Positions 40,844 through 59,894 of a DNA stretch of 64,000 nt are shown piece by piece. Location: the NCBI RefSeq assembly GCF_000938305.1, contig NZ_JYMT01000041.1, forward strand, positions 1 through 64,000, given 5' to 3'. Within the stretch, counting starts at the first letter, position 1; the number at the start of each line of letters is the position of its first letter. This stretch comes from Bradyrhizobium sp. LTSP885 (lineage in GTDB: Bacteria > Pseudomonadota > Alphaproteobacteria > Rhizobiales > Xanthobacteraceae). The notes beneath the pieces are model-generated. The model did no database searches and was not told the origin of the DNA. It saw only the letters and a list, made by a program, of their open reading frames with translations. The position numbers and the translations under genes are program-made.

Positions 40844-41509
40844 TTAGCTTGTGATCCCGAAGATGTCGCGCACCACGTTGCGTGTCGTGGCCGAACGGCG
40901 CGCATTGGGATAGATGCCATGCAGCACGCTGTCGGCGGCGAGCGCACCGCCGTCGATAATGATGGCCCCTGTCGACACGAAGCTGTTGTCGCCCACCACC
41001 GTCTTGCCGATCACCCGGCTGCCGCCATACATCACGATGCCGCGGCCGAACGACGGATAGTCGTTATCGAGGTTCGCCCCGACCGTGCAGTTGTGATAGC
41101 AGATGAAATAATCGGCATAACTGGCGCGGCCGAGCACGGTGCCGACCGGATGCTGAACCGCGAACACGTCGGGCAGCTCCACCTCGTAGAACGCGTCGAG
41201 CGCGTGCAGCGCCTTGTTGAGCGCATAGGCCTTGTCGGCAATCGGGTGGCCGGGCCTCTCGCGGAATGCGCTATTGGCGAGATAATACAGGAAGATCGCA
41301 TATTGGTCGGAGTGCCAATGCGAGAACCGCGCCTCGCCGTTGGCGAAGAAACCCTTCAGCCTGACACGGGAGAAGCAGTGCTCGACCCGTCCGAGCGCGA
41401 GATCCACGAATTTCAGCAGGTCGGAGAGATCGGTGCCGTCAGGGAACAGGTTCTCGAACTGCTTGCGCACATAGAGGGCGAGTTCGTTGCGGCCGAGCGA
41501 GAGCTGCAC
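40844..41509 (-). CDS. Hexapeptide acyltransferase (serine acetyltransferase-like)
   Basis: This 221-residue protein has a helical N-terminal half (LYVRKQFENLFPD, HSDQYAIFLYYLAN) and a beta-helix half (GTVLGRASYADYFICYHNCTVG, SRVIGKTVVGDNSFVSTGA). The arrangement resembles CysE. It is the last gene of the nonulosonate operon, four bases after the hisF-like stop, and a GTG at 41509 is the only start clear of that gene. It may acylate the nonulosonic acid or its amino precursor, or make an activated small molecule. Its start and substrate are uncertain. Confidence 0.75.
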   Translation of the reverse strand: MQLSLGRNELALYVRKQFENLFPDGTDLSDLLKFVDLALGRVEHCFSRVRLKGFFANGEARFSHWHSDQYAIFLYYLANSAFRERPGHPIADKAYALNKALHALDAFYEVELPDVFAVQHPVGTVLGRASYADYFICYHNCTVGANLDNDYPSFGRGIVMYGGSRVIGKTVVGDNSFVSTGAIIIDGGALAADSVLHGIYPNARRSATTRNVVRDIFGITS

Positions 41510-41513
41510 GGTG

Positions 41514-42290
41514 CTAGTTCCGACTTGAGGAGCTTGAACGCACGTCGAGACCGCGCGAGGCGAGATGACTGCGCAGCTTGATCGGACTGTGGTCGGTGAA
41601 CAGGAACATCGAGGAGATCGCCACGGCGGACGCGCCGGCCTCCAGCGCGTCGATCGCATGCTGCAGTGAACCGCACCCGCCGGAGACAATCAAGGGCACG
41701 CTCAGCACGCGGGATGCCTCGTGGATGATGTCGAGATCATAGCCGGTCATGGTGCCGTCGCGGTCAATCGAGCCGAGCAGCACCTCGCCGCAATGCAGGT
41801 CCTCGCAGCGCCGCGCCCATTCGACCGGATCGAGCGCGACATGTTCGCGGCCACCGTCGATGAACACGCTGGCGTGGTTGGGGCCGATCGTTTTGTAGTC
41901 GATCGACACCGTCATGCACTGGTCGCCGAAGGTGCGCGCCGCCTCGCGCAGGAATTCCGGCCGCCGCACCGCTTCCGAATTGACCGACACCTTGTCGGCG
42001 CCAGCGCGCAGCAGCATGTTGACGTCGTCGAGCGTCTTGACGCCGCCGCCGACCGTGAACGGCATGAAGATTTCTTCCGACATCCGCTCGATGATCTCGA
42101 CGACGCGGCCGCGCGAGGCGGCGCTCGGCACGATGTCGAGCACGATCAGCTCGTCGACGCCGTAATCGTTGTAGACCTTCGCGGTGGTCACCGGATTGCC
42201 GGCGATGCGCTCGTTCTCGAAGAAGCGGACATATTTCACGAGCCGGCCGTCACGCAGCAGGAATTTCGGGATCAGGCGCTTCTTCAGCAT
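41514..42290 (-). CDS. HisF-like glutaminase-partner subunit with altered active site
   Basis: This 258-residue (beta/alpha)8 protein of the HisF family (HisF2/WbuZ type) probably channels ammonia from the HisH-like subunit to the WbpG-like amidotransferase. Family landmarks are VGGGVKTLDDVNMLLRAGADKVSVNSEA and GSIDRDGTMTGYDL. Asp11 of true HisF is Leu11 here, in IPKFLLRDGRL. The second catalytic Asp is kept as Asp131 in SIDYKT. Loss of Asp11 argues strongly against imidazole-glycerol-phosphate synthesis. It lies ten bases after the hisH-like gene. Confidence 0.88.
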   Translation of the reverse strand: MLKKRLIPKFLLRDGRLVKYVRFFENERIAGNPVTTAKVYNDYGVDELIVLDIVPSAASRGRVVEIIERMSEEIFMPFTVGGGVKTLDDVNMLLRAGADKVSVNSEAVRRPEFLREAARTFGDQCMTVSIDYKTIGPNHASVFIDGGREHVALDPVEWARRCEDLHCGEVLLGSIDRDGTMTGYDLDIIHEASRVLSVPLIVSGGCGSLQHAIDALEAGASAVAISSMFLFTDHSPIKLRSHLASRGLDVRSSSSSRN

Positions 42291-42300
42291 CGCGGGCTTT

Positions 42301-42939
42301 TCACGGATTCCAGCGCAGGAAATTGCTCACCAGCTCGATCCCGGAGTCCTGGCTCTTTTCGGGATGGAACTGGGTGGCGGCGATATTGTCGCGCGCGATG
42401 ATCGCGGTGACCGGCTGGCCGTACTGGGCGTAGCCCACCACGTCGGTGGGCGCGTTGCAGCGCATGGCGAAGCTGTGCACGAAATAGAATGCTAGATTGC
42501 TCTCGCGGATGTTGGCGAGGATCGGATGGCTGCGTTCCTTCGCCACCATGTTCCAGCCCATATGCGGGATCTTCAGCGCGGGGTCATTGGGCGTCAGGCG
42601 CAAGACGTCGGCGTCGAACCAGCCGAGCCCGCGATGCGGGACGGCGTCGTCGGCGTGTTCCTCGGAGGTCTTGGCGAGGAGCTGCATGCCAAGGCACACC
42701 GCAAGAAACGGCTTGCCCTTCTCGCGGACATGGCGCTCGAGCATTTCGTCGATACCGCGGGCGCGGATGTTGGCCATGGCATCACCGAACGCGCCGACAC
42801 CAGGCAAGATCACGTGCGAGGCGTTGGCGATGGCGTCCGCGTCGTGGGTCACGACAGGGTTGAAGCCGCAATATTCGACGGCGTTGCGCACCGACCGCAC
42901 ATTGTTGATGCCGTAATCGACGATCGCAACGTCTGACAT
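42301..42939 (-). CDS. HisH-like glutamine amidotransferase subunit
   Basis: This 212-residue class I glutaminase releases ammonia from glutamine. The triad is Cys82 in AVCLGMQLL, with His192 and Glu194 in FHPEKS; the oxyanion strand PGVGAFG is at 46-52. The start at 42939 matches HisH (MSDVAIVDYGINNVRS). Between the wbpG-like and hisF-like genes, it belongs to the three-part system that turns an N-acetyl into an acetamidino group in LPS and nonulosonic acid pathways. Confidence 0.9.
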   Translation of the reverse strand: MSDVAIVDYGINNVRSVRNAVEYCGFNPVVTHDADAIANASHVILPGVGAFGDAMANIRARGIDEMLERHVREKGKPFLAVCLGMQLLAKTSEEHADDAVPHRGLGWFDADVLRLTPNDPALKIPHMGWNMVAKERSHPILANIRESNLAFYFVHSFAMRCNAPTDVVGYAQYGQPVTAIIARDNIAATQFHPEKSQDSGIELVSNFLRWNP

Positions 42940-42999
42940 CGCCCCGCTCCCAGCAGCGCCGTCACGGCGCCGTCCAATCAAGCCTCGATTATCCCTCGA

Positions 43000-44178
43000 C
43001 TATCCCTTGCCGCCGATTTCGACACCCGGATGGTTCGGCCACGGCACCTGCGTGTTGTTCCACTGGTCCATGTCGGGCATTTTCCGGCCCGGCTCGACAT
43101 TGTTCGGCGAGAATTGCCACGGGCTGACCTCGTGCTTGATCGCGATGCCGAGGAACTGCTCCTCGGTGAGCTGCAAATAGTCGAGGAACAGATCGAGGCT
43201 CGGCGGCCGCTTGCCGTCGAACTCCCGCACCAGCGCTTCGCCCTGCTCACGAGTCATGCGCTTGTTGCGGATGTCGATATTGGAGAGATGGTTGGTCCGG
43301 CCCATGCCGCGCTTGATGAATTTCAGATAGTCGCGCACGCCCTGGAAGAAGCACTCGATCTTCTCGTAATCGTATTCCGGCGGAATGCCCTCGACCTCCT
43401 GGCCCTTCCAGCCGAGTTCGCGCTTGATGATCTCGACGTGCTTCTTGGTGTCCCACTTGATGTAGCTGCCAAGGCAGATCGAGCGGCACTTGATCCGCAT
43501 CAGCTCCTTGCGCGGCGGATAGACGAACGGATAGAGGTCGCGCTTGGCGACGCGGCCGCCCAAAAATTCGTACATGTCGTCGGCGGTGATGCCGAGATTC
43601 ATCGCACGGTTGAAGCGCTTCTCGTCGACCTCTTCCATCTCGTCGTAGGAATAGAACGACTGATATTCGGCCAGGCTTTCGCCCCAGAACAGCAGCGGCG
43701 TCTCGTAGCGGATCGCGATCTGCATGGTGTGGGCATAGATGCCGGTATGACAGTGCCAGCAGAAGTCGCCGCGGCGCTTCAGCGATTCCAGCATCAATTC
43801 GCGCACCACATGCCAATTCGGCGTGAAGTTCAGCACATCGACGCCGAGCTGCTTGAAGACAGAGGTGTTGTTCTCTTCGATCAGCGGCCGGTAGAACCAG
43901 TGGTCGAAACGCACCACCAGCGGCTTCAGGCCGAGTTTCTTCACCACGTACCAGAGCTGGAAAACGCTGTCCTTGCCGCCCGAATAGGGAACGATGCAGT
44001 CGTAAAGGCCCTTGTCGCGGTATTGCGCAACCAGTTCCATCATCTGGCCGTGGCGCTCGTCCCAATTGATCAGGGTGTCGCGAACTTCGATCTGCGCACA
44101 GACGCTGCAGGAACCCGCATCATCGAACGATGTCGCCTCAGCCGTTTCCGGCAACAAGCATTTGCTACAGCTCAACAT
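43000..44178 (-). CDS. N-acetyl sugar amidotransferase (WbpG/PseA-like)
   Basis: This 392-residue PP-loop ATPase would activate the N-acetyl group of a sugar by adenylation and replace its oxygen with ammonia. The PP-loop is SGGKDS at 66-71. An N-terminal cysteine set (Cys4, Cys7, Cys24, Cys27) resembles a zinc knuckle, and internal cysteines lie in FCWHCHTG. ATG 44178 follows CTGGAA. In Campylobacter and Pseudomonas, homologues make acetamidino forms of pseudaminic or legionaminic acid or of 2,3-diamino sugars. HisH- and HisF-like partners follow immediately. Confidence 0.9.
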   Translation of the reverse strand: MLSCSKCLLPETAEATSFDDAGSCSVCAQIEVRDTLINWDERHGQMMELVAQYRDKGLYDCIVPYSGGKDSVFQLWYVVKKLGLKPLVVRFDHWFYRPLIEENNTSVFKQLGVDVLNFTPNWHVVRELMLESLKRRGDFCWHCHTGIYAHTMQIAIRYETPLLFWGESLAEYQSFYSYDEMEEVDEKRFNRAMNLGITADDMYEFLGGRVAKRDLYPFVYPPRKELMRIKCRSICLGSYIKWDTKKHVEIIKRELGWKGQEVEGIPPEYDYEKIECFFQGVRDYLKFIKRGMGRTNHLSNIDIRNKRMTREQGEALVREFDGKRPPSLDLFLDYLQLTEEQFLGIAIKHEVSPWQFSPNNVEPGRKMPDMDQWNNTQVPWPNHPGVEIGGKG

Positions 44179-44215
44179 TTCCAGGATTCTCGCAATTGCA
44201 TGATTTGCCGAGGGA

Positions 44216-45028
44216 TTACCACGCCGTCCACCCACCGTCGACCGCAATGCACTGGCCGGTCACATAGGCCGACAAATCGCTCGCCAGATAGGCCACGGCG
44301 CCCTTCATATCGTCCTCACGCGCCATGCGCGCAAGCGGCGTGCGGTCCACGTACCGGCTCAGGAACGGCTCCGGCGTGGCCCGGAATACACCACCCGGCG
44401 CCACCGCATTGACCCGGACCCGCGGCGCCATGGTGGTCGCGAGCCATCGGGTCATCTGCAGCAGGCCACCTTTGCTCGCTGCATAGGCCGCCGGGTTGCC
44501 GAGGCTGGTTCCCTCGTAGAGCCGCCAATCCGGCCCGGTGAGCCCATAAATCGAGGAAATATTGATCACGCTGCCATGACCGGATGCCGCCAGGTCTTCC
44601 GCGGCGGCCTTGATCAGGATGAACGGCGCGGTCAGGTTGACCTCGATCGCCCGCCGCCAGGTCGCATCCGACTGCTGCGCGAACGGCACCGCCCAGCCCT
44701 CGAGCCCACTGGTGCCGACAAAGGCGGCACAATTCACGATGATGTCGATGCGGCCGAACTTTTCGCGCACCCGACGCGGCAGCTCCTGCACGGCGGCGGA
44801 TTGCTCGAAATCGCACGCAAAGGTCTCGGCACTGACCGACCAGCTTTCGGTCAGCTTCGCCGCGACATCGGCACCAGTGGACTCCGCGATATCGACAAGC
44901 GCGATACTGGCGCCGAGTTCGGCAAGGCCGTTGGCAATGGCACGACCGATATGGCCGGCGCCGCCGGTGACGAGCGCAACGCGCCCACTGAGCGACATCA
45001 TTTCGCGGAGCGAGCGCTCGGTGCTCAT
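44216..45028 (-). CDS. Short-chain dehydrogenase/reductase (PtmA-like)
   Basis: This 270-residue classical SDR has the cofactor loop TGGAGHIG at 21-28, NCAAF near 99-103, catalytic Ser159 and YAASK with Tyr182 and Lys186. The C-terminal GQCIAVDGGWTAW is typical. In Campylobacter the SDR PtmA sits with PtmE in the legionaminic acid route and works before GDP-GlcNAc formation; the same neighbour is present here. It overlaps the ptmE-like gene by four bases. Its exact reaction is inferred only from context. Confidence 0.85.
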   Translation of the reverse strand: MSTERSLREMMSLSGRVALVTGGAGHIGRAIANGLAELGASIALVDIAESTGADVAAKLTESWSVSAETFACDFEQSAAVQELPRRVREKFGRIDIIVNCAAFVGTSGLEGWAVPFAQQSDATWRRAIEVNLTAPFILIKAAAEDLAASGHGSVINISSIYGLTGPDWRLYEGTSLGNPAAYAASKGGLLQMTRWLATTMAPRVRVNAVAPGGVFRATPEPFLSRYVDRTPLARMAREDDMKGAVAYLASDLSAYVTGQCIAVDGGWTAW

Positions 45029-46065
45029 CCGAAGATCCTCTGGAATTCGTCGGAGGCGCGCTGCAGGTCGTCGAGACGACCGACATCGATCCAGTATTCC
45101 CGCAACGGGAACACCACCGATTGCTTGCCGTCCGCAATCGTCCGCTCGATCAGCGTCGGCATGTCGACGGTCTCGTTGGCCTGAAGATGATCCAGCACGC
45201 CTGGATCGAGCAGATAGACGCCGGCATTGACGAAGAATTTCTGGGTCGGCTTCTCGCGGATCCCGAGCAGGCGATGATCGTCGAAATCGATCACGCCGAA
45301 CGGCACCGTCACCGCGTGCTCGCGGATGCCAACGGTGGAGAACGCCTGATGCTCGCGATGATATTTCAGCATCTGCTCGAAGTTCACGGTCGTGAGCAGG
45401 TCGCCGTTCATGACGAAGAAAGGCTGCTTCGGGCGCTCCGGCAGCAGCGAGAGCGCACCGGCGGTGCCGAGGCGCTCATTCTCCTGGAGGTACTCGATCT
45501 CGACGCCCCAGGCCGAGCCGTTGCCGAAATAGTCGCGGATCATCTCCGCCTTGTAGTTGACCGAGATGAAGAACTTGCCGAACCCGGCCTTGACGAAGCC
45601 CCCGAGCACGGTCTCCAGGATCGGCTTGTCGCCGACGCGGATCAGGGGCTTCGGAATGTCGTCGGTCAACGGCTTCAGCCGCGAGCCGAGGCCGCCGGCC
45701 ATCAACACCACCCAGTGGTCGGACTGCTGCCCGAGCGCGAGATCGTCGATCAGCTTGACCTCGACCACCCGGCCTTCGGGATCGACGACCGGCAGCTGAT
45801 GGATCGAATGCTTGCGCATCAGATTGAGGGCCGCCGGATTGGAAATGCCGACCGGCGCGGTGATCGGCGTGCGGTTCATGACGTGGTCGACGGACGCATC
45901 GAGGCCGATACCGCCGAGCAGCCCACGCCGCACGTCGCCGTCGGTCACGGTCCCGACGATCTTGCCGTCGCGCTCGACGACGGCAAGCTGCAAATGGCCC
46001 TGATCGATCCGCCGCAGCGTCTCGATCAAAGGCGTATCTTCACTGACAAAGCAAACTTCGTTCAT
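45025..46065 (-). CDS. ptmE: CBS-domain nucleotidyltransferase (PtmE-like)
   Basis: This 346-residue protein has two CBS motifs in residues 1-115 followed by a sugar-phosphate nucleotidyltransferase domain starting VVLMAGGLGSRLKPLT at about 119-134. Further motifs are GDKPILETVLGGFVKAGF and FFVMNGDLLT. This layout matches PtmE, which makes GDP-activated glucosamine or GlcNAc for legionaminic acid. CBS domains may let adenosine nucleotides tune it. It is three bases from the upstream acetyltransferase gene and overlaps the SDR gene, so all are co-translated. Confidence 0.88.
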   Translation of the reverse strand: MNEVCFVSEDTPLIETLRRIDQGHLQLAVVERDGKIVGTVTDGDVRRGLLGGIGLDASVDHVMNRTPITAPVGISNPAALNLMRKHSIHQLPVVDPEGRVVEVKLIDDLALGQQSDHWVVLMAGGLGSRLKPLTDDIPKPLIRVGDKPILETVLGGFVKAGFGKFFISVNYKAEMIRDYFGNGSAWGVEIEYLQENERLGTAGALSLLPERPKQPFFVMNGDLLTTVNFEQMLKYHREHQAFSTVGIREHAVTVPFGVIDFDDHRLLGIREKPTQKFFVNAGVYLLDPGVLDHLQANETVDMPTLIERTIADGKQSVVFPLREYWIDVGRLDDLQRASDEFQRIFG

Positions 46066-46068
46066 GAC

Positions 46069-46701
46069 CTAATCCCGGCCGCCGCCGGCGAATGCGCCAG
46101 CCTCGACATTTCTTGCGACCACGGCGCCGGCGGCAACGATCGATCCCGCTCCCACGCTGACGCCCCCCAAAACCACGGCTCCCGCACCGATATGCGCGCC
46201 CTCGCCGACCGACACACCGCCGCAAAGTATTGCCCCCGGAGCAATATGGGCGTGATCGCCGACAAGGCAGTCATGCTCCACCACCGCACGCGTGTTCACC
46301 AGGACATTGCGGCCGATCCACGCGGCCGGCTGGATCACGGCGCCGGCCATCACCTGCGCACCGTCGCCGAGCGCCGCGTCTGACGCGATCACGGCTGATA
46401 GATGCGATATGACCGGAAACCTGTAGCCCAGGCCGGCAAAACGGCCAAACAGCGCCCGCCGGCCCGCCAACCCGGAATCCGAACGCGAGGCTTGGTTGCC
46501 GAGACCGTTGGCGAGTTCGACTGCATTGGCGTCCATCTTCAGGATATCTTCGTCCGGTCCGGTGATCGGAATGCCGCCAACGGCCTCGCCGATGCGCGCC
46601 GGGTCGCGGTCTGTCACGGCCGTCGGCCGTATGCCACGGCTCAGCAATGCTTCGATGACAACGCGGGCATGGCCTCCGGCGCAGAGCACGATCAGGCTCA
46701 T
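46069..46701 (-). CDS. NeuD/PglD-family sugar O- or N-acetyltransferase (LegH candidate)
   Basis: This 210-residue protein has an N-terminal Rossmann-like part (MSLIVLCAGGHARVVIEALL, the NeuD/PglD signature). A C-terminal left-handed beta-helix follows, with VVEHDCLVGDHAHIAPGAIL, whose His is the expected general base. PglD-like enzymes N-acetylate the 4-amino group made by LegC/PglE, so this is the best LegH candidate; NeuD-like O-acetylation is the alternative. It overlaps the legI start side by four bases (ATGA). Confidence 0.85.
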   Translation of the reverse strand: MSLIVLCAGGHARVVIEALLSRGIRPTAVTDRDPARIGEAVGGIPITGPDEDILKMDANAVELANGLGNQASRSDSGLAGRRALFGRFAGLGYRFPVISHLSAVIASDAALGDGAQVMAGAVIQPAAWIGRNVLVNTRAVVEHDCLVGDHAHIAPGAILCGGVSVGEGAHIGAGAVVLGGVSVGAGSIVAAGAVVARNVEAGAFAGGGRD

Positions 46702-47780
46702 GGTTCCAGCGCCTCATTGGCCGCGTAGTCGCGCGGCGCGGGCCTGCCGAGATAGGTCCAGTACTCGATCGGCGGAATGCCATTGCCGGGCCGCTTGACG
46801 CCGAGATTGTCCTCGGTGAAGCGCTCGCCGCTTTTGATCGCACGGATGGCGACGAGGCTCCTGCGCGCCACCGTCCGGTTCGGCAGTTCTTCCGGGGCCG
46901 GCACCTTGCGGCCATCGCCGAGCGCGGCCTCGATATCGCGGATCGAAGCGATCATCGTGGCCATCTCATCCGGCTCGATCGAGGCGCGGTGATCGGGGCC
47001 GGGCAAATTTCGGTCGAGCGTCAGGTGCTTCTCGATCACGGTGGCGCCGAGCGCCACGGCGGCGGCTGCGATGTGAATGCCGCGGCTGTGATCGGAGAAG
47101 CCGACCGGAAGCCCGAACGCATCGCGCAACGTCGCCATCGCGCGCAGATTGATCGACTGCGGATCGGCGGGATATTCGGTCGTGCAGTGCAGGAGCGTGA
47201 CCTTGGTGCGCAGCTCAGTCCAGGCCGCACGGTCAAGCAGGACGTTTGCGAGATCGGCCGGCGTCGGCCGCGTACGGGCATCGCCGAGATAGCCGAACGC
47301 GATGACGCCGAGCGCCTGCTCGACTTCGGCGAGCGTCGCCATGCCGGTCGACAGGATGATCGGCAGCTTGAAGCGCGCAAGATGCAACAACAGCGGTGCG
47401 TTGGTGAGATCGCCGGAGCCGACCTTCAGCGTGGCGACGCCGATGCGCCGGACGAGGTGGGTTGCGCTGTCGGCGTCGAACGGCGTCGACATGTAGGTAA
47501 TGTCGGCGGCGGTGCAGGCGGCCGCGATGCGCGCCTCGTCGTCCTCGCTGAGCTCGAGCGCGCGCAGCATCTCGAGCTGGGATTGCTCGCTTCCGGTCGT
47601 GACCTTCTGATAGCTCGCCTTGGCAGCGTCGCTGGTCGCCAATTTGTCGGCGCGAAACGATTGAAACTTGACGACGTCGGCGCCTGCGCGCGCGGCCGCG
47701 CCGACCAGCGCGAGGGCCTGCGCAGGGTCGCCATTGTGGTTAACGCCAGCCTCGGCAATGATCAGGGTTCGGCGATGCAT
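46698..47780 (-). CDS. legI: Nonulosonic acid synthase (NeuB/LegI family)
   Basis: This 360-residue enzyme condenses phosphoenolpyruvate with a C6 amino sugar to give a nine-carbon acid. The N terminus LIIAEAGVNHNGDPAQAL, the ADVVKFQSFRADKLAT strand, LKVGSGDLTNAPLL and GFSDHSRGIHIAAAAVALGA match NeuB. The C-terminal 60 residues form the SAF/antifreeze-like domain (RRSLVAIRAIKSGERFTEDN). The start at 47780 fits NeuB; an open frame to 48260 is not coding. With LegB and LegC present, the product is more likely legionaminic acid than neuraminic acid. Confidence 0.92.
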   Translation of the reverse strand: MHRRTLIIAEAGVNHNGDPAQALALVGAAARAGADVVKFQSFRADKLATSDAAKASYQKVTTGSEQSQLEMLRALELSEDDEARIAAACTAADITYMSTPFDADSATHLVRRIGVATLKVGSGDLTNAPLLLHLARFKLPIILSTGMATLAEVEQALGVIAFGYLGDARTRPTPADLANVLLDRAAWTELRTKVTLLHCTTEYPADPQSINLRAMATLRDAFGLPVGFSDHSRGIHIAAAAVALGATVIEKHLTLDRNLPGPDHRASIEPDEMATMIASIRDIEAALGDGRKVPAPEELPNRTVARRSLVAIRAIKSGERFTEDNLGVKRPGNGIPPIEYWTYLGRPAPRDYAANEALEP

Positions 47781-47919
47781 GCGGTTTCGTCGCGGGACGC
47801 GGTGGGCGACCGAAATCACCCTCCAATCAAGCGGTTGTCTTAGTCGAGTACACTGGTAAAAGCAACGCAAGCGGGTTGCGGCTGGTACAGCTGAAAGCCG
47901 TGCAGTGGTAAGAACTTGC

Positions 47920-47938: not shown

Positions 47939-47963
47939 CAGCGGCAGGACTCATCGAAAGCGC

Positions 47964-48710
47964 ATGGCTGAGACGGCACAGATATTGTTCCTGTTGGTGG
48001 GGCGCGGCGGATCGAAGGGATTGCCGGGCAAGAATTTGCGCGAAATCGGCGGGCTCAGCCTGATCGGCTACAAGGCGAAGTCCGCCCTGCAGTCGCGCTA
48101 TTGCTCGCGGCTGATCGTCTCCAGCGACAGTGCTGATATCCGCAACGAGGCGGTGCGCCACGGCGCCGAAATGCTGTTCGAGCGGCCGGCCGAGCTTGCG
48201 ACCGACACCGCCTCCTCCAACGACGTGGTGCTGCATACCATGGACTGGATCGAGGCGCATGAAGGACGGCGCTACGACGCCATCATGCTGCTGGAACCGT
48301 CATCGCCGTTCGCGCGCCCCGAACATTTCAACGAGGCGATCGAACTGTTCCTGGCGCGCAAGGCGAGCCTCGTGGTCGGCATGCGCGAGACCGAGGTCTC
48401 GTCGATCTTCGTTGGCACGCTCGGCGCGGACGGCTCGATCGGCGGCATCGTCGACAGGATGCTCAAGACACCGGCGCAGCGCCGCCAGGATCAGCCGATC
48501 GAGGTGACAATGAACGGCGCGCTCTATCTGGTCGGCTGGGACGCGATGCGCAAGCACCGCAAGATCTACGCCGATCCGGTCGCGAGCTACGGAATCATGA
48601 TGGACCGGATGCACTCGATCGAGATCGAAAGCGCGGCCGATCTCGCCTATGCATCCTACGTCATCGAGCACGGCATGCTCGACGCCTCGCCGTGGCGGAT
48701 ATCGCCATGA
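47964..48710 (+). CDS. legF: CMP-nonulosonic acid cytidylyltransferase (NeuA/LegF family)
   Basis: This 248-residue enzyme activates the nonulosonic acid with CTP. The nucleotide-binding motif is LVGRGGSKGLPGKNLREIG near the N terminus, and LLEPSSPFARPEHF and MNGALYLV follow. The length is that of the single-domain NeuA/LegF enzymes. ATG 47964 was chosen over the upstream open frame to 47916, which covers the hairpin. Its stop overlaps the legG start (ATGA), so the two are translated together. Confidence 0.92.
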   Translation: MAETAQILFLLVGRGGSKGLPGKNLREIGGLSLIGYKAKSALQSRYCSRLIVSSDSADIRNEAVRHGAEMLFERPAELATDTASSNDVVLHTMDWIEAHEGRRYDAIMLLEPSSPFARPEHFNEAIELFLARKASLVVGMRETEVSSIFVGTLGADGSIGGIVDRMLKTPAQRRQDQPIEVTMNGALYLVGWDAMRKHRKIYADPVASYGIMMDRMHSIEIESAADLAYASYVIEHGMLDASPWRISP

Positions 48711-49900
48711 CGGCCGCGCCACGCCGCATCGCCGTCGTCACCGGGTCGCGGGCGGACTACGGCTTGCTGCGAGGCATTTTGACGCGGCTGCAGAAGATGG
48801 ACGTCGATCTCAGCGTCATCGCCTGCGGCATGCATCTGGTGCCGAGGTTCGGCGAGACCTGGCGGATCATCGAAACCGACGGATTTCCGATCGCCGCGAA
48901 GATCGATCTGAAGCTCGACGACGATCGCGCCGCGACGGTGGCGCACGGTACCGGTATCGCCGTCTCCGGCTTTGCCGACGTGCTGCCGAAGCTCGCGCCC
49001 GATCTCCTCGTCGTGCTGGGCGACCGCTACGAGATCCTGGCGGCCGCGGTCGCAGCGACCCTTCTGAACATCCCGATCGCGCATATCCATGGCGGAGAAG
49101 TCACCGCCGGCGCCTTCGACGACGCCATCCGCCATGCCATCACCAAAATGGCCTGCCTGCATTTCGTTGCGGCCGAACCGTATCGGCGCCGCGTCATCCA
49201 GATGGGCGAGAACCCCGACTTCGTCTTCAACGTCGGCGCGCCGGGCCTCGATTTCGCTGATACCGCACCCGTGCTCAGCCGCGCCGAGCTATTCGCGCAA
49301 TTGGGCATCACCGGCCCGGAACGCTTCCTGCTGGTGACGCTGCATCCGACCACGGCGCAGCCGGAAGCCGACGCGGCCAATGTCGCGGCACTGCTCGGCG
49401 CGCTCGCGGAGATCGGAGATCGGAGCTTTGTCTTCACCGGCGTCAATGCCGATCCCGGCTATCGCGCGATCGACGATGCAATCCGCGCCTTCGTGGCGTC
49501 GCGGCCGGATCGGGCACATTTGTTCACGTCGCTCGGCAGCGAGCGCTACTGGGCAGCGCTGCGGCTTGCCGATGCCGTGGTCGGCAATTCCTCGAGCGGC
49601 ATCCTGGAGGCACCAGCCGTCGGCGTGCCTTCGATCAATATCGGCGACCGCCAACTCGGACGGTTGCGCGCCGCCTCGATCATCGATTGCCCGGCCGACT
49701 CCGCGGCGATCCAGGCTGCCCTCGAAAACATCTTTGCGGACCGGTTCCGTCCCGACCCGTCGCTTGTGCCGCCCTATGGCCTCGGGGGTGCGTCGGAGCG
49801 AATCGCTGGAACCCTTCAAAAGATCGACCTTCGCCAAGCTTTCCCCAAGCATTTCCATGACTTGGAAGCTCCCCTGAGCGGACCAGATCCAGTCTCATAG
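48707..49900 (+). CDS. legG: Hydrolysing UDP/GDP-GlcNAc-type 2-epimerase (NeuC/LegG)
   Basis: This 397-residue GT-B-fold enzyme epimerises C2 and removes the nucleotide to supply the hexose for the synthase. Motifs are VTGSRADYGLLRG at the start, HIHGGEVTAGAFDDAIRHAI in the middle and VVGNSSSGILEAPAVGVPSINIGDRQ near the end. In the legionaminic route this is LegG, acting on GDP-2,4-diacetamido-2,4,6-trideoxy-glucose. ATG 48707 overlaps the legF stop. Distinction from NeuC rests on the neighbours LegB and LegC. Confidence 0.9.
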   Translation: MTAAPRRIAVVTGSRADYGLLRGILTRLQKMDVDLSVIACGMHLVPRFGETWRIIETDGFPIAAKIDLKLDDDRAATVAHGTGIAVSGFADVLPKLAPDLLVVLGDRYEILAAAVAATLLNIPIAHIHGGEVTAGAFDDAIRHAITKMACLHFVAAEPYRRRVIQMGENPDFVFNVGAPGLDFADTAPVLSRAELFAQLGITGPERFLLVTLHPTTAQPEADAANVAALLGALAEIGDRSFVFTGVNADPGYRAIDDAIRAFVASRPDRAHLFTSLGSERYWAALRLADAVVGNSSSGILEAPAVGVPSINIGDRQLGRLRAASIIDCPADSAAIQAALENIFADRFRPDPSLVPPYGLGGASERIAGTLQKIDLRQAFPKHFHDLEAPLSGPDPVS

Positions 49901-53158: not shown

Positions 53159-54730
53159 TTATTGGTCTTTCTCCTGATCGCCCTGCTTCGCGGTTCCGGT
53201 CCAGACGTCGACGGCCAGCCCGACGACGAGCATTGAGCCAAGCACCAACGCCGAGTTGGCGACGCCGAGCGGGCCCTGAACGGGGCTGAGAAGGATACTC
53301 GCGAGAACAAAGACCAGAAGCAGTTGCGGCGTCATCAGACTGGAGCGTCTTGCTCCCGCCGCGCTCCAGCCCGCCACGCATCCCCAGACCAGGATGTAGA
53401 TGACGGCGCCTGCGATTCCAAAATCGATGAAGGCGGCAAGCCAGACCGTCGGGAAGAAGCCGTAAGTCCCGGCCGATCGCTGCTCGGCTTCCATGGTGGC
53501 GACATGCTGGTTCTCCGGCGCAAACACCCGCAGGATCGGCGACAGCACGCCGACCTCATAGACCCCCCACTGCCTGGAGAATTTGTCGCGTGCGTGCCAG
53601 GCGATATCGATCGTTCGGACACCGTGGGTCAGGTAGAAATAGGTGCTGAGGCCGATCATCGCGGCGCGCGCCGACAGGTGGCTGGATTCGAGCGCGGACG
53701 TGACATAGCCGCGCGGTTTCACGTTCCAGGCTTCCAGCCTGATCGCGAGCACCGCATCGGCGGAACTCACTTCCGGCGAAGGCGCCGGCGCAGCGGTCGC
53801 CTCGGCCATCCGCTTGCTGAAGTCGGTGGCGGTCATCACCTCCGCAGACTTCGGCTGGGTGGTCGACGAACCGGCTTCGGTTGAGGGACGAACCGGAGCC
53901 TCGTCCGCTTTCGGCGCAGCCTCAAGCTGAGGCTGAGCAGCATCGCGCTCCTTCTGCTTCGCCTGCAGTTCGCGGATCAGCGGCGATACCTGCGCGCAGA
54001 AATTCTGTCGGCTCGACCAGATCGAGCTCGAATAGATCGCAAACAGCCCGATCGCCACAATCGTCTTGAGCAGCAGATGGTGCCCGGGCGGCAGAGGCTT
54101 CCGTCCCTCGCTGATGCGCACCAGAATCGTGACGATAATCAGGACAAGGACGAACAGGATCGGCATCCGTCCGGAATAGAGCAGCGCGTAGCCCACCGGC
54201 GAGACGACCGACAGCTGCGCAAGCGCCGCCGCCCAGCCCTTGATCGCCTCGCCCCGCAACAGAAACACCACCACCGAGACGAAGCCGAACGAGAACATGA
54301 TGTAGCCGAGATACAGCAGCGGCGTCCGCTTGATCGCAACGGCATCGACCAGTCCCGGCGCACAGCGCAACATCTCGGCATAACCGCCGTTGCTCACGCC
54401 GCTCAGGACGGTGCGATCAAGCGCAATAAATCCAATTCCGGCGATTCCGATAAGCGAACTCGCGATGACGATTCGATTCAGCATCATCGAGGAAGGCGCG
54501 TGCATTTGTCCCTGGCGCGCGAACCGGCGCTCGAACAGGACGCCGCCGGCGCGATACGCCACGAGGAACAGCAGCACACCCGCTCCGACCACCGTCAACA
54601 CGATCAGCGACGGTTGTGCCGGATAATCGATCGGCCCAACGGCAACGAGGGCAAGCGCCGCGCACCAGACCACGACAATGAGAATAGCTGGCGACGAGGT
54701 GCCGCGAGCTAGCCGAATGAAGGGTTGCAT
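53159..54730 (-). CDS. Candidate O-antigen polymerase (Wzy-like) with Ala/Pro-rich loop
   Basis: This 523-residue membrane protein has about eleven hydrophobic segments and a large extracytoplasmic loop around residues 245-370, the layout of Wzy polymerases. Part of that loop is low-complexity (AAPKADEAPVRPSTEAGSS, AEATAAPAPSPEVSSAD), which is unusual. WGVYEVGVLSPILRVFAPENQ closes the loop. ATG 54730 follows GGGGG in its leader. It lies next to the flippase gene. Wzy proteins share little sequence, so the call rests on topology and context. Confidence 0.65.
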   Translation of the reverse strand: MQPFIRLARGTSSPAILIVVVWCAALALVAVGPIDYPAQPSLIVLTVVGAGVLLFLVAYRAGGVLFERRFARQGQMHAPSSMMLNRIVIASSLIGIAGIGFIALDRTVLSGVSNGGYAEMLRCAPGLVDAVAIKRTPLLYLGYIMFSFGFVSVVVFLLRGEAIKGWAAALAQLSVVSPVGYALLYSGRMPILFVLVLIIVTILVRISEGRKPLPPGHHLLLKTIVAIGLFAIYSSSIWSSRQNFCAQVSPLIRELQAKQKERDAAQPQLEAAPKADEAPVRPSTEAGSSTTQPKSAEVMTATDFSKRMAEATAAPAPSPEVSSADAVLAIRLEAWNVKPRGYVTSALESSHLSARAAMIGLSTYFYLTHGVRTIDIAWHARDKFSRQWGVYEVGVLSPILRVFAPENQHVATMEAEQRSAGTYGFFPTVWLAAFIDFGIAGAVIYILVWGCVAGWSAAGARRSSLMTPQLLLVFVLASILLSPVQGPLGVANSALVLGSMLVVGLAVDVWTGTAKQGDQEKDQ

Positions 54731-54814
54731 ATTGCCCCCGTTTGAAAATATCGCCGCAAAACGAGGGCTGTGTAGCAAGGTCATTACGACACCCCCATGA
54801 CGCGCCAGTCGATC

Positions 54815-56140
54815 TCAGGGATAGAGCATGTCCGGATCCGTGGGAAGGCCGACGGTTTCAGCTACGCTGCGTTCGCCGCCATTCTCCCGCACATTGCGGA
54901 CCGCCAAGGCCGTCAACGAGACGAACAGCACGGTGCTTGCGGCTCCGCCGGCCAGCGCCGCGCCATAGATGCCGAGCCGTGGAACCAGCAGCAGATTGAG
55001 CAGGGTCGACACAACAGCGGAACCGAGGTTGCAAAGCAGGAGGTATCTGTCCGACCGTGCGGCGTACAGGGCGTATGAGGGAACGTCAGCCAGCATGCGC
55101 AGGAAGATTCCCGGCAACATTGCGTAGAAGACCCAGATATTCGCCCCATAGGCAGTCAATCCGAGCACCGCCAGCATCGGTTTCATAACGAGACCGGAGG
55201 AGATCATCGCGCCCGCCGCCAGCGCCAGCATTGACCAGAAGAACGGGCGCAGCGCCGCCCGATAGGCCTGCGTCCCGGCCGTGTATCCGGCGATGACCTT
55301 CGGCAGGAACTGGTGCGAAACCGATCCACCGAGCGACAACATGCCGATCAGGATCGTCGAATAGAACGTGTAGATGCCGAGCGCATCACGCCCGACAAAT
55401 TCATCGATGACGAAGCGGTCGACATAGGAAATAACCAACGCGCCCGCCGCGGTCAGCATGAACGGACGGGCCGTCCACAGGCCCTCGCGGATGGCCCGCC
55501 AGTCGGGACGGTATCCACGCAGCGTCCGCCAGGGCAGGTCGGAGAGCGAACGGGCCGAGAAGACAATCGCTGCCATGCCGCCGAGCGCCCACCAGATCAG
55601 AACCGTTTCGAGCGTGTGCGTCGAAGGCACCGTAAACATCAGAAGCGCGATCGCGTAGACCCAGATGCCGCCGCGAAGGAACACGCCAACATAGGCCCGC
55701 ACCGGACGCGAGGTGATGATCAGGATTCGCGTCGCTTCGAGCGACAGATGCTCGGTGACGAGGATCAGGAGGAACCACGGCGCCAACCGGACCGGAAACC
55801 TGCCGGCGAAGATCGCAACGCCGACCACAAGGCCGACCAGCAGCAACGCAATCGCGCAGAGCGCGATCTGGTCCGCGATGATCCGGGTTCGCCGCTCCGG
55901 TGTCGCTGGCACCAGTTCACGCAACGTGTAGGAGTAGAACTCGAGCCCGACCGTCAGCAGTGCGAAAGCCAGCGCCGCCGTCAGGAGGCCGTATTCCCCC
56001 ATCTCCGCCGGCGACAGCATCCGCGCCAACAGCAGCGACAGCAGGAAGCGGCTGGCGAGCGTCAGCACCCGCAGAATGAGGGCCGACATGGTGCCGGCGA
56101 CCGCGGGGCGCGTCAGCAGATCAACCAGACGAGATCGCAT
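54815..56140 (-). CDS. wzx: Oligosaccharide flippase (Wzx-like)
   Basis: This 441-residue MATE/MOP-superfamily membrane protein has about twelve to fourteen helices. The opening ALILRVLTLASRFLLSLLLA, then MLSPAEMGEYGLLTAA, is typical of Wzx flippases that move undecaprenyl-linked repeat units across the inner membrane. YVDRFVIDEFVGRDALGIY is a further MOP landmark. It is the only flippase in the window and is followed by a polymerase-like gene. No Wzz chain-length regulator or ABC exporter is seen. Confidence 0.87.
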   Translation of the reverse strand: MRSRLVDLLTRPAVAGTMSALILRVLTLASRFLLSLLLARMLSPAEMGEYGLLTAALAFALLTVGLEFYSYTLRELVPATPERRTRIIADQIALCAIALLLVGLVVGVAIFAGRFPVRLAPWFLLILVTEHLSLEATRILIITSRPVRAYVGVFLRGGIWVYAIALLMFTVPSTHTLETVLIWWALGGMAAIVFSARSLSDLPWRTLRGYRPDWRAIREGLWTARPFMLTAAGALVISYVDRFVIDEFVGRDALGIYTFYSTILIGMLSLGGSVSHQFLPKVIAGYTAGTQAYRAALRPFFWSMLALAAGAMISSGLVMKPMLAVLGLTAYGANIWVFYAMLPGIFLRMLADVPSYALYAARSDRYLLLCNLGSAVVSTLLNLLLVPRLGIYGAALAGGAASTVLFVSLTALAVRNVRENGGERSVAETVGLPTDPDMLYP

Positions 56141-56196: not shown

Positions 56197-57585
56197 TCAG
56201 GCTGCGGTTCTGCAGGACTTCATAAATCTCGGCAAATACGCGTTCAGCGAACGTACCAGCGGCTCGACTGATTTGCGTGCAGCCTCGTTTTCAGGATCGA
56301 AATTGCGCCAGCCGAAATAATCGCCCTCGACGCTGATCGCCGCAAGGTGGCGCATGACGTCGCGTTGCGTCGCCGCGAGATCCTCTGGGACGCGCCATCG
56401 CGCGAGCTTCTCGGGAAGGCCCTCGATCTCGTCGACGTCGCGGACATGCAGGAAGTTCTGCTCGGTGGCGTAGTAGGGATCGGTTGCAACGGAACAAAGC
56501 CCTGCCAGCGCTGCCTGGAAACCGATCGTGCCTGTGAGGGTGACCGAAACCGCGCATTTTCCGATCAGGAGATTGGCCGGAACGTCGTAAGGAACCAGAG
56601 TGACACCAGGCAGCTTCGACAACCGCTCGAACAGCTCGCGCTGGCGGAAGCCGAACTGCAGCGGATGATCCTTGACGAACACGCGATAGCCTGCGCCCCC
56701 GAACACCTCGCAATAGCGCACCACCACGTCATCATGCGCCAGCATGCGCTGCGACGACAGCCAGTAGTCCATCGAGGCTTCGGGAAACAGCTGCAATCCC
56801 AGGAACACGCGCCGATCTCGCGGCACTTCGGAAACTCGCCCGTCCCAATCATGGTCGAGAAGTCCGAGGACCGCGACGTCGCCTGGACGCACCTTGTGCT
56901 TCAGCCGCTTCAGTGCATCGAGGTAATGGCAATTGTAGCGGTCGTGCTTGAAGAAACGCCAGACATTGAAAAACGCGCCGCGCAGCGCGTAGTAGCCGAA
57001 TATCCGCCAGAACCTTACGAGCGTGAAGCGCTTGGCATCGCGCACATAGGACGGCGTAAAGTCCTCCTTGCAGAGCAGGCCGACCGCGGCCTCGACGTCG
57101 GCATTCGAGGGCTCGCGCAGCCAAACCGGCCGACCGCGGCGCATCAGCATGACCTGATCAGGAATGATCGAGGTGGTCATTTCGAGAAAGTCTATCCCGC
57201 GCCGGTTTGCCGTGCGCGCCATGACGTCCATGACATAGCGGTCGATGGTGAACGTCACGACGAGTTCGGGCACCAGCATATCAAACGCGCGCTCGATCGC
57301 CTGGACCATGCCGCCGATCATCCGGAGCGCTAGGCCGCGGTCGAGACTCCTGAGCACGCGGCACCGCAGGATGATGTCGGCGCAGCCGTCGTCGCCGAAC
57401 CGCGCGATCGCAACCTCGCCTGCGTCACCCCTGTCGATAAAGCGATAGAAATCGTCGACCAGCGGATAGCCGCCATCATCGCGCAGATCGCTCAACACCA
57501 CGGTGTCGGCGAATTCCATGCGCGACGCCAGGTATTTCCACCACGGGGTCGTGCTGTGAATGGTGAAGAAGACGACGCGGGACAT
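56197..57585 (-). CDS. Capsule-synthesis-like glycosyltransferase (KpsS-type) protein
   Basis: This 462-residue soluble protein looks like a capsule or polysaccharide synthesis GT-B protein. The C-terminal half contains VFVKDHPLQFGF and SVTLTGTIGFQAALAG, similar to the HP and TG...E/QA motifs of KpsS/KpsC and CDP-glycerol or Kdo transferases that use CMP or CDP sugars. The start shares a base with the legC stop (TGATG). Being co-translated with legC, it is a good candidate for the transferase that uses the CMP-nonulosonate. This is inference. Confidence 0.6.
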   Translation of the reverse strand: MSRVVFFTIHSTTPWWKYLASRMEFADTVVLSDLRDDGGYPLVDDFYRFIDRGDAGEVAIARFGDDGCADIILRCRVLRSLDRGLALRMIGGMVQAIERAFDMLVPELVVTFTIDRYVMDVMARTANRRGIDFLEMTTSIIPDQVMLMRRGRPVWLREPSNADVEAAVGLLCKEDFTPSYVRDAKRFTLVRFWRIFGYYALRGAFFNVWRFFKHDRYNCHYLDALKRLKHKVRPGDVAVLGLLDHDWDGRVSEVPRDRRVFLGLQLFPEASMDYWLSSQRMLAHDDVVVRYCEVFGGAGYRVFVKDHPLQFGFRQRELFERLSKLPGVTLVPYDVPANLLIGKCAVSVTLTGTIGFQAALAGLCSVATDPYYATEQNFLHVRDVDEIEGLPEKLARWRVPEDLAATQRDVMRHLAAISVEGDYFGWRNFDPENEAARKSVEPLVRSLNAYLPRFMKSCRTAA

Positions 57586-58814
57586 CAGATCTTGTTCGCG
57601 TTTTCTTTCCCGCCGGCGGCAAGGAATGGACTGCTCGGCAGGTTGATGCAGCGCCTATACATGTCCTCAGCGACGTCAAGCGGCGAACGCGGGCAATCAC
57701 GATACATCGGAAGCATGTGCATCGGCGTCCACAACGGCCGCGCCTTGACACCATGGCCATGCAGCGCCGACAGGAGCCGGTCGCGCTCGCCGGCACATTC
57801 GCGGTCGAGCACCAGCGTATTCAGCCAGTAATTGCTTTGTGCCCCCTTCGGCTCGCGATAGACGCGCGCGCCGGGAAACTGGCTGAAGGCCTGCAGGTAG
57901 CGTTCGGCAAGCTCCCGCTTGGCGGCGACCATCGCGGGCAGCCGCTCCATCTGCGCGCAGCCGAGGGCCGCGTTGATGTTGGGAAGGCGGTAGTTATAGG
58001 CCACCTCGTCATGGTCGAACGCCCAGGCGTGCGATTTCTTGGCGGTCGAGGTGACGTGCCGCGCGCGGCGGGCATGATCGTCGTCGCTGGTCAGGATCAT
58101 GCCGCCACCGCCGGTGGTGACGATCTTGTTGCCGTTGAAGCTGAGCACGGCGGAGTGACCGAAGGTGCCACAGCTCTGCCCGTTCAAGATCGAGCCGAGC
58201 GATTCGGTGGCGTCCTCGACGACCACCAGGTCGTATTTCGCGGCCACCGTTCCCAGCGCCGCCATGTCGACCGGGTGCCCGAAGATATGGACGGGAACCA
58301 CCGCGCGAAGCCGGCGGCCGGTCTCCTTGTTGATCCAGCCGCCATTCCGGTGCACCGCGATGGCCGCAAGATGCTCGTCGAGGGCCATGGGATCGAGGCC
58401 AAGCGAATCCCAGGTCGAATCGACGAAATGCGGGATGGCGCCGGCGTGGCTGACGGCATTCGCCGTCGCGACGAAGGTGATCGCAGGCAGCAGCACCTCG
58501 TCGTTGGGCTGCACGCCCTCGAGCAGCAGCGCGGCGTGAAGCGCGGCGGTGCCGTTGACGATAGCCACCGCATGTCGGGCGCCCGTCGCCTCCGCGACCA
58601 TCTGCTCGAAGCGGGTCACGTACTGGCCGGCGGAGGACACCCAGTTGGTATCGATACAATCGAGCACAAACTGACGCTCGCGCTCGCCGAACCTCGGCTC
58701 GTGCAGTTCAACCGGGCGCGGCTGCGCGCCAAGAACGGCATCGACGGCGTCGAGAACCGGCTGCAGGTCGAGTGCCGCGCCGACATGGCTGGCTTGCTTG
58801 GACAAAATGCTCAT
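57585..58814 (-). CDS. legC: LegC-family sugar aminotransferase
   Basis: This 409-residue DegT-type PLP enzyme aminates C4 of the 4-keto sugar made by LegB. The PLP lysine is Lys230 in SFNGNKIVTTGGGGM; VVVEDATESLGS and the LegC-type AVVPVHIFGHPVDM precede it. The N-terminal helix (LDLQPVLDAVDAVLG) and the ELHEPRFGERERQFV lead are typical of LegC. ATG 58814 is used. A GTG at 58823 would overlap the legB stop by four bases and is also possible. Next in the operon is the KpsS-like gene. Confidence 0.92.
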   Translation of the reverse strand: MSILSKQASHVGAALDLQPVLDAVDAVLGAQPRPVELHEPRFGERERQFVLDCIDTNWVSSAGQYVTRFEQMVAEATGARHAVAIVNGTAALHAALLLEGVQPNDEVLLPAITFVATANAVSHAGAIPHFVDSTWDSLGLDPMALDEHLAAIAVHRNGGWINKETGRRLRAVVPVHIFGHPVDMAALGTVAAKYDLVVVEDATESLGSILNGQSCGTFGHSAVLSFNGNKIVTTGGGGMILTSDDDHARRARHVTSTAKKSHAWAFDHDEVAYNYRLPNINAALGCAQMERLPAMVAAKRELAERYLQAFSQFPGARVYREPKGAQSNYWLNTLVLDRECAGERDRLLSALHGHGVKARPLWTPMHMLPMYRDCPRSPLDVAEDMYRRCINLPSSPFLAAGGKENANKI

Positions 58815-58819
58815 CAGGG

Positions 58820-59818
58820 TCACAGCGTGTAGGCGTTGGCGCGATAGCGCGACAGGTTCTCCTGCCTGGTGAACCAGGCGATGGTCTGTTCGAGGCCCTT
58901 GCGCAGCCCCTCAAGGCCGCCAAAGCGCGGCGACCAGCCGAGCAACCTCGCGGCCTTGGCGTTATCAGCCCACAGCCGTTCCACCTCGCTTCGGTCGGGG
59001 CGGACGCGGACGTCGTCCTGCTCGATCTCGATCTCGGCCCCCATCAGCTCGGCGATCAGGCGCGCGGTGTCGCCGATCGATATCTCGAAGCCACTGCCGA
59101 TATTGATGACCTCGCCGATACCGGCCCTGGTCTCCAGCGCCGCCAGGAAGCCGCCGGCCGTGTCGGCGACATAGTTGAAATCTCGGGTCGGGTGGACGCT
59201 GCCCAGCTTGATGCGGCGCTGGCCGGCTGCGATCTGGGTGATAATGGTCGGAATCACCGCGCGGGCGGACTGCCGCGGACCATAGGTGTTGAACGGCCGC
59301 ACAACGGTCACCGGCGTGCCGAAGGAGCGCTCAAACGACAGCGCCAGTTGGTCCGCCCCGATCTTGGTCGCCGAATAGGGCGATTGCCCCTGCAGCGGAT
59401 GCTCCTCGGTGATCGGAACGAACTGCGCCGTGCCGTAGACCTCGCTCGTCGACGTGTGCACCACATGGCCGACATCGAGATCGCGCGCCGCCTGCAGCAC
59501 ATTCAGCGTGCCGCGAATATTCGTATCGAGATAGGTGTCCGGCGAATGATATGAGTAGGGTATGGCAATGAGCGCGGCGAGATGCAGGACTGCACCACAC
59601 CCCTTCATCGCGGTTCGTAACCCGTTTGGGTCACAAATGTTGCCCGCAAATACGTCAATCTTGTCGAGCACCTCGCTGGACAGCGTATCCAGCCAACCAT
59701 ATGATCCCATGCTATTGTAGTGCACGAAGGCGCGCACGCTGAACTGTCGGCGGACCAATTCTTCAGCAAGATGAGAGCCGATGAAGCCACCCGCGCCCGT
59801 CAGCAATACCTTTTGCAA
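58820..59818 (-). CDS. legB: Nucleotide-sugar 4,6-dehydratase LegB
   Basis: This 332-residue extended SDR removes water from GDP-GlcNAc (or UDP-GlcNAc) to give the 4-keto-6-deoxy sugar that enters legionaminic acid synthesis. GAGGFIGSHLAEEL is at residues 8-21. The catalytic part is HTSTSEVYGTAQFVPI with SPYSATKIGADQ (YxxxK), and RPFNTYGPRQSARAVIPTII is the LegB-type stretch. No ATG is available: a TTG at 59818 begins at the Rossmann strand with AAGGAG nine bases upstream. A TTG at 59857 is also in frame. The leader carries repeated copies of the ribosome site. Confidence 0.9.
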   Translation of the reverse strand: MQKVLLTGAGGFIGSHLAEELVRRQFSVRAFVHYNSMGSYGWLDTLSSEVLDKIDVFAGNICDPNGLRTAMKGCGAVLHLAALIAIPYSYHSPDTYLDTNIRGTLNVLQAARDLDVGHVVHTSTSEVYGTAQFVPITEEHPLQGQSPYSATKIGADQLALSFERSFGTPVTVVRPFNTYGPRQSARAVIPTIITQIAAGQRRIKLGSVHPTRDFNYVADTAGGFLAALETRAGIGEVINIGSGFEISIGDTARLIAELMGAEIEIEQDDVRVRPDRSEVERLWADNAKAARLLGWSPRFGGLEGLRKGLEQTIAWFTRQENLSRYRANAYTL

Positions 59819-59894
59819 GCTCCAAGTCTCCTTAAGTTCAAATTTCCTGAGCTCCAAGTTAGCTCCAAGCCTCCTTTAGCTCCAAGCCTCCTTG
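59818..59894. repeat. 17-base direct repeats carrying ribosome sites before legB
   Basis: Copies at 59861-59877 and 59878-59894 (AGCTCCAAGCCTCCTT plus one base) are in tandem. A diverged copy (two changes) is at 59818-59834 and a partial one at 59850-59860. On the minus strand each full copy reads AAGGAGGCTTGGAGCT, so each presents a Shine-Dalgarno core ahead of a TTG. Confidence 0.8.

Follow-up and report, generated by a model that had tools for sequence, protein, structure and literature searches.

Legionaminic acid (Leg) is a nonulosonic acid whose CMP-activated form is made in Campylobacter jejuni and C. coli by enzymes of the LegB, LegC, LegG, LegI, LegF and PtmE families with a presumed GDP-linked entry, and PMC13317340 describes the Campylobacter enzymes PseA and PtmG as acetamidino synthases acting on CMP-pseudaminic acid (CMP-Pse) and CMP-Leg. 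The same families are present in the stretch of DNA analyzed here (the window; 64,000 nucleotides of contig NZ_JYMT01000041.1 from Bradyrhizobium sp. LTSP885, part of a 7.85-Mb genome in 43 contigs), and we propose with good confidence that they form a Wzx/Wzy-type locus for a surface polysaccharide whose repeat unit receives an amidinated nonulosonate of the legionaminic type, made along a GDP-linked route and activated with CMP. In contrast to the Campylobacter pathway, the window has no recognized PtmF, adds genes for a class-III aminotransferase and a CysE-like acetyltransferase, and has a polysaccharide rather than a flagellar setting; its LegH candidate is of the NeuD type, while the LegH of C. 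jejuni is of the GNAT type.

Three other described clusters are close in content. That on a plasmid of Rhizobium sp. WL3 (NZ_CP042825.1; L210) has candidates for LegB, LegC, LegG, LegI, LegH, PtmE, LegF, a short-chain dehydrogenase/reductase (SDR), an amidotransferase, WbuZ and HisH, but they form one continuous run together with a Gfo/Idh gene (PtmF-like) and an ABC transporter, and a class-III aminotransferase is not annotated in the stretch; its annotation uses the specific names for LegB, LegC, the amidotransferase, WbuZ and HisH, has NeuC and NeuB in place of LegG and LegI, and gives generic names to LegH, PtmE and LegF. The cluster of Bradyrhizobium sp. CCBAU 51765 (L088) shares LegB, C, G, I, H and F, PtmE and PtmA with the window, but its LegI falls in a separate clade (support 100, starred), its LegF is only 26% identical and no trio of amidotransferase genes scored above threshold in the fetched stretch. 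The O-antigen cluster of Legionella pneumophila serogroups 6 and 12 (Sg6/Sg12), in the gene rows seen of PMC3694923, resembles the window by gene names only, with a class-III aminotransferase, a cytidylyltransferase, an acetyltransferase, HisF, HisH, a lipopolysaccharide (LPS) protein, NeuB and a capsule-type protein, whereas PseG, CapD and DegT are also listed and LegB, LegC and PtmE do not appear in those rows. A legionaminic polysaccharide locus of Bradyrhizobium was not described in the titles and abstracts found, a sample with partial abstracts and few subscription journals; a paper on Bradyrhizobium motility has the word legionaminic only within a reference, and an eLife paper on FlmG reports a Pse synthase in Caulobacter.

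The genes lie in a minus-strand block, a facing set of plus-strand genes and a LegB/LegC block (Table 1), and were called by Pfam and NCBIfam profile scores against curated cut-offs. These profiles confirm the original prediction that LegB, LegC, a LegH candidate, LegI, LegF, LegG, PtmE-like and PtmA-like proteins are encoded in two blocks with Wzx and Wzy candidates between them, and its statement that candidates exist for all steps between GDP-GlcNAc and a CMP-nonulosonate stands on the same matches. The best-scoring NCBIfam models for LegB and LegC are TIGR04180 and TIGR04181, those of their own families, and not models of other sugar pathways. The LegH and LegG proteins exceed the NeuD-type and NeuC models, the activity of LegH being predicted, and PtmE has the CBS plus NTP-transferase architecture and is linked to Leg genes in other genomes, its specificity for a GDP-nucleotide being presumed. 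LegF carries the weakest pathway label by profile, and its putative assignment draws on its motif and gene context. Nine reading frames (LegB, LegC, LegI, LegG, LegF, PtmE, WbuX, HisH and the class-III aminotransferase) are free of internal stops and contain selected motifs. A Pse pathway was rejected, as the PseI, PseC and PseB models all scored under their cut-offs. A search of PDB sequences with LegB returned nothing at a strict limit of 1e-40, which says little.

From the known pathway and the protein families we infer the following reactions. PtmE would provide a GDP-glucosamine-type precursor, which LegB would dehydrate, LegC aminate and LegH N-acetylate, LegG would hydrolyze and epimerize the product, and LegI would condense it with phosphoenolpyruvate (PEP) for activation with CMP by LegF. 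WbuX with HisH and HisF would convert one N-acetyl group, at a predicted position, to an acetamidino group; P0002, the protein encoded next to LegC, would most likely transfer the nonulosonate, and the class-III aminotransferase, the CysE-like acetyltransferase and the PhyH protein would probably modify the same sugar further.

Table 1. Features of the locus, with positions in the window, strand, and supporting motifs and profile scores (curated cut-offs in parentheses).
Feature	Position	Strand	Evidence and remarks
LegB, GDP-GlcNAc 4,6-dehydratase candidate	58820..59818	-	TIGR04180 498 bits (475); motifs GAGGFIG, YSATK; ORF open to 59857, TTG start at 59818 inferred from upstream AAGGAG
LegC, PLP aminotransferase	57585..58823	-	TIGR04181 525 bits (420); motif GNK
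P0002, candidate nonulosonate transferase, GT-B-like	56197..57585	-	Adjoins LegC; PF05159 below cut-off
Wzx flippase candidate	54815..56140	-	PF01943 19.8 bits, below cut-off (28.2)
Wzy polymerase candidate	53159..54784	-	TIGR04370 35.9 bits, below cut-off (40)
PhyH-type dioxygenase	49991..51145	+	PF05721 23.4 bits (22); in 9/10 congeners and the G859 locus
LegG, hydrolyzing 2-epimerase, NeuC family	48707..49900	+	TIGR03568 432 bits (236)
LegF, CMP-nonulosonate synthetase	47964..48710	+	PseF TIGR03584 101 bits, below cut-off (206); motif RGGSKG
LegI, nonulosonate synthase (NeuB/LegI family)	46698..47780	-	TIGR03569 462 bits (400); PseI model 232 (340); longest ORF 46698-48260 overruns, likely start 47780
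LegH candidate, NeuD/PglD-type hexapeptide acetyltransferase	46069..46701	-	TIGR03570 201 bits (161)
PtmE/LegX, presumed GDP-sugar entry	45025..46065	-	CBS PF00571 and nucleotidyltransferase PF00483
PtmA-like SDR	44216..45028	-	SDR profiles only; PtmA name from position and relatives beside PtmE
WbuX-type N-acetyl-sugar amidotransferase	43000..44178	-	TIGR03573 394 bits (203); motif SGGKDS
HisH-type glutaminase subunit	42301..42939	-	TIGR01855 223 bits (105)
HisF/WbuZ-type subunit	41514..42290	-	TIGR03572 WbuZ 291 bits, just below cut-off (300)
CysE-like hexapeptide acetyltransferase	40844..41518	-	EpsC NF041874 36.7 bits, below cut-off (150); start uncertain, ORF open to 41689
Class-III (glutamate-1-semialdehyde aminomutase-like) PLP aminotransferase	39509..40825	+	PF00202 152.8 bits; best NCBIfam NF004856 268, below cut-off (486); start uncertain
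WbpE/D/B-like set: DegT aminotransferase, hexapeptide acyltransferase, Gfo/Idh oxidoreductase	34731-37377		

The arrangement is strongly conserved within the genus. A LegF-like match was found in 63 of 146 genus genomes, 11 of them of the window type (83-100% identity, own included) and 52 at most 35% identical, and of the 62 besides the genome of the window itself, the layout was compared in the 10 whose LegF is of the window type. All 10 have HisF-HisH-WbuX-PtmA-PtmE-LegH-LegI facing LegF-LegG, with P0002-LegC-LegB further along, and because both the genes and their order are conserved in every one of these loci, chance co-location is implausible and was rejected. The aminotransferase and CysE-like genes precede HisF in nine, the contig of the tenth (G468) ending inside HisF; the Wzy-Wzx order is kept in nine of 10; and about 2.5 kb separate HisH from WbuX in one (G406). 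In G391 the Wzx and Wzy proteins are divergent and no PhyH, FkbM or SDR matches were seen at the locus, while P0002 (74%), LegC, LegB and the sugar block are kept, as would be expected if repeat-unit genes can be exchanged around a sugar module that stays fixed. The DegT/hexapeptide acyltransferase/Gfo/Idh set lies directly after LegB in nine of the 10 congeners and on the opposite side of the locus in the window, as do the hexapeptide acyltransferase and Gfo/Idh genes of G391. G035 and G143 were additionally examined for their own Leg cluster. Across 14-19 kb of alignment, DNA of these two is 80-88% identical to that of Bradyrhizobium sp. CCBAU 51765 and of a Bradyrhizobiaceae metagenome-assembled genome, which points to Bradyrhizobium as the very probable genus. 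Other members of the genus (L030, L032, L088, L089) have a different Leg cluster with LegI in a clade of its own (support 100, starred), which makes at least two types of nonulosonate locus within the genus.

While its gene assignments and its complete list of steps have held up, the original prediction overlooked an amidotransferase trio, WbuX, HisH and HisF/WbuZ, which lies within the span that it covered (41514-44178, minus strand), as well as the accessory genes next to it. The N-acetyl-sugar amidotransferase and its glutaminase partner pass TIGR03573 and TIGR01855, and the third protein scores 291 against 300 with the WbuZ model; given the trio, an acetamidino-substituted product is predicted. 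PseA and PtmG are relatives of WbuX. Genetic linkage points to the nonulosonate as the probable substrate. A profile search of genome contigs with a PtmE alignment gave 455 confirmed relatives, and in the loci of the best 80, which represent close relatives of PtmE and whose gene counts depend on the chosen bit-score thresholds, on contig ends and on the fetched stretch, the complete trio occurs 13 times, with LegI present in each case.

P0002 (462 aa) is 74-82% identical and next to LegC in all 10 congeners. It has no Pfam or NCBIfam match above cut-off, the PF05159 Capsule_synth profile giving an E value of 0.0068 and 16.3 bits (cut-off 20), although five of the six distant relatives scanned pass this profile and a V-x-VK-x-HP region is common to P0002 and three distant relatives. 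We call P0002 apparently related to the PF05159 transferases, not a member of them. Its predicted structure is poor (pLDDT 57, from a four-sequence alignment) and gave weak GT-B matches, with query TM-scores of 0.20-0.28 among the 50 matches listed, and a PDB sequence search returned no match up to an E value of 1. Its setting suggests that P0002 is most likely the nonulosonate transferase. PF01973, used as a test for flagellin Maf, matched archaeal controls only and is uninformative for this genome.

The class-III aminotransferase, the CysE-like acetyltransferase and P0002 are found again alongside nonulosonate genes in certain distant alphaproteobacteria. In two distant alphaproteobacterial metagenome-assembled genomes (G150 and G151) the sugar genes are split over two loci. 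The first (L041 and L075) has the aminotransferase (64 and 61% identical to that of the window), LegG, LegF (56 and 53%, compared with 24-38% in the other 70 LegF-bearing loci), LegI, LegH, PtmE and PtmA, and the second has WbuX (72 and 74%), HisH (55 and 54%), HisF (69 and 70%), the CysE-like protein (54 and 53%) and LegB (66 and 64%), with WbuX and LegB 7-9 kb apart. CysE-like homologues lie beside HisF in L163 and L164 (53 and 54%). Thalassobium (L096) has LegB, LegC, LegG, LegI, LegH, PtmE, LegF, an aminotransferase, a PtmA-like protein, a CysE-like protein and the trio in one run, at low identities to the window (aminotransferase 28%, CysE-like 37%, WbuX 25%). The G859 locus (L223) has LegF (32%), WbuX (62%), HisH (48%), HisF (59%), the CysE-like protein (42%), the aminotransferase (29%), PtmA (41%), and P0002 (39%) and PhyH (34%) homologues, and some 8-13 kb beyond PhyH are LegI, LegG, LegH, a short PtmE match and a LegC relative (36%). 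CysE-like matches were found in eight other genomes among 398, and only G859 combines one with the trio and nonulosonate genes. We propose that the accessory set may decorate the nonulosonate. More speculatively, and we regard this as rather unlikely, the class-III aminotransferase, the CysE-like protein and the trio could in an alphaproteobacterial variant build an undescribed legionaminic derivative that is attached by an unrecognized GT-B family of nonulosonate transferases represented by P0002, and the aminotransferase could even stand in for LegC in relatives in which a LegC orthologue was not recognized. A genome of 1.2 Mb (G356; L156, L157) also has class-III aminotransferases, 40-45% identical to that of the window, in loci with WbuX-like and NeuB-like genes, and L041 has a FlaA1-type dehydratase beside PtmA.

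The synthase is the only PF03102 match in the genome at an E value of 0.001. In a 94-row tree built by a quick method with SH-aLRT support (one duplicate locus and two short or odd rows were left out), which holds no biochemically characterized LegI, it falls in a 49-row set (support 97, starred) that comes almost entirely from PtmE loci, and forks with L028, L041 and L075 at weak support (80). It is separate from the PseI-type rows (99, starred) and from the group of NmNeuB and Sinorhizobium meliloti (97, starred), with a caveat for E. coli K1 NeuB given below. The nearest rows by tree path are L028, L041, L054 (Burkholderiales), L057 and L075, and the highest identity is to L038 (Gammaproteobacteria, 59%). 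Recent import from Campylobacterota was rejected, as the synthases of that phylum form a separate 14-row set. The protein has the motif SGD rather than SFE, and the residue comparison of synthases in PMC7371886, which reports Tyr for Leg at NmNeuB position 184, excludes the Pse-type Phe.

Several observations weigh against the proposed pathway and product. LegF, HisF/WbuZ, Wzx, Wzy, P0002 and the CysE-like protein all score under curated cut-offs, PtmF was not recognized in the ORFs scanned in the window, and no complete trio was seen in the fetched stretches of 67 of the 80 PtmE loci. E. coli K1 NeuB lies outside the 49-row set of the window synthase but inside the next, 71-row set, and hence synthase sequence alone cannot settle NeuB versus LegI. 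The window synthase has Thr at NmNeuB position 184, as in 64 of 97 rows, such that the Leg-type Tyr rule fits only in part and did not classify it. The Leg assignment thus comes from gene context and not from the synthase sequence. Among the distant relatives, searches of G150 and G151 with LegC gave at best 30-37% identity and no recognized orthologue, and a LegB orthologue was not recognized in G859, so that the accessory set does not belong to a single form of the core pathway. Finally, the aminotransferases of L096 and L223 are only 28-29% identical to that of the window, and NF004856 (cut-off 486) is passed by that of L096 (620 bits) and failed by those of the window (268) and L041 (240), so these aminotransferases may be different enzymes.

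The product could instead be an epimer or another 5,7-diamino nonulosonate, such as 4-epi- or 8-epi-legionaminic acid, or a Neu5Ac-like sugar, which we think rather improbable. Leg isomers are reported in PMC7371886 to share one pathway, and a similar accessory set is listed for Sg6/Sg12 in the paper on non-1 serogroups of L. pneumophila; in the synthase tree, E. coli NeuB is not set apart from synthases of the LegI type. A simple Neu5Ac route is made unlikely, however, by LegB and LegC exceeding their own cut-offs, and no gene in the locus is shown to epimerize C4 or C8; legionaminic acid remains the predicted product.

In a second alternative, which we judge unlikely, the Leg pathway stands, but DegT, the hexapeptide acyltransferase and Gfo/Idh (34.7-37.4 kb) supply the repeat unit with a 2,3-diacetamido sugar, and it is on this sugar that the trio acts. 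In Pseudomonas aeruginosa O5, WbpG, HisH2 and HisF2 reportedly act as such a trio on a 2,3-diacetamido sugar. The three genes lie only about 4 kb from the trio in the window and follow LegB in nine of the 10 congeners, and in both G150 and G151 a DegT gene (36%) is near the other locus, with a Gfo/Idh gene as well for L041. Yet the trio accompanies Leg genes in Rhizobium WL3, whose incomplete gene table shows no DegT-type set, and in the 13 PtmE loci mentioned above, and the trio relatives of G150 and G151 are found with LegB in stretches where no WbpB/D/E-type match was seen. We prefer the nonulosonate as the substrate to be amidinated. That the nonulosonate is made for flagellin, the glycosylation of which is fed by the Leg pathway in Campylobacter and Plesiomonas according to PMC4481668, is very improbable, as the two Leg blocks enclose P0002 and the Wzx and Wzy candidates, and G391 keeps the sugar genes alongside divergent Wzx/Wzy.

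The core pathway itself is widespread. The 80 PtmE loci include LegF in 72, LegI in 69, LegG in 67, LegC in 64, LegH in 57 and LegB in 45, with at least three of LegB/C/G/I/F in 70 and all five in 37, and they span 14 named phyla plus three rows without a phylum. Thirteen are labeled Alphaproteobacteria, including Bradyrhizobium, two Magnetospirillum, Methyloligella, Thalassobium and Brevundimonas. Within an even draw of 150 genomes from the order, nine (own included) have a full-length PtmE, and seven of the eight others have further Leg genes nearby, the exception being L029 (G008), with no Leg gene on its 10-kb contig. A study by Kint et al. (EMBO J, 2023) is said to use LegX as a signature of Leg and to place Leg in Brevundimonas. 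Legionaminic acid biosynthesis is also listed for Stagnihabitans tardus in a table of PMC13209277, the title of which places the genus in the Paracoccaceae. With core Leg genes in many phyla and these alphaproteobacterial cases, including the Rhizobium plasmid with a full set plus trio, the pathway is known and widespread, and the view in the original prediction that an alphaproteobacterial setting is notable was not borne out. The core pathway is ordinary, and we consider the locus moderately interesting for its amidotransferase trio, for an accessory set that recurs with nonulosonate genes and for a transferase candidate that lacks a curated model of its own; the last two are the leads to follow. 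If carried on the surface of a Bradyrhizobium, nonulosonic acids might affect how hosts recognize the cell and how phages bind to it.

Two further features flank these genes. The DegT/hexapeptide acyltransferase/Gfo/Idh set at 34731-37377 is perhaps for a 3-acylamino sugar, and beyond LegB, at 60366-61706 on the plus strand, is a polymerase-like protein without a Pfam match that is 50-75% identical in congeners.

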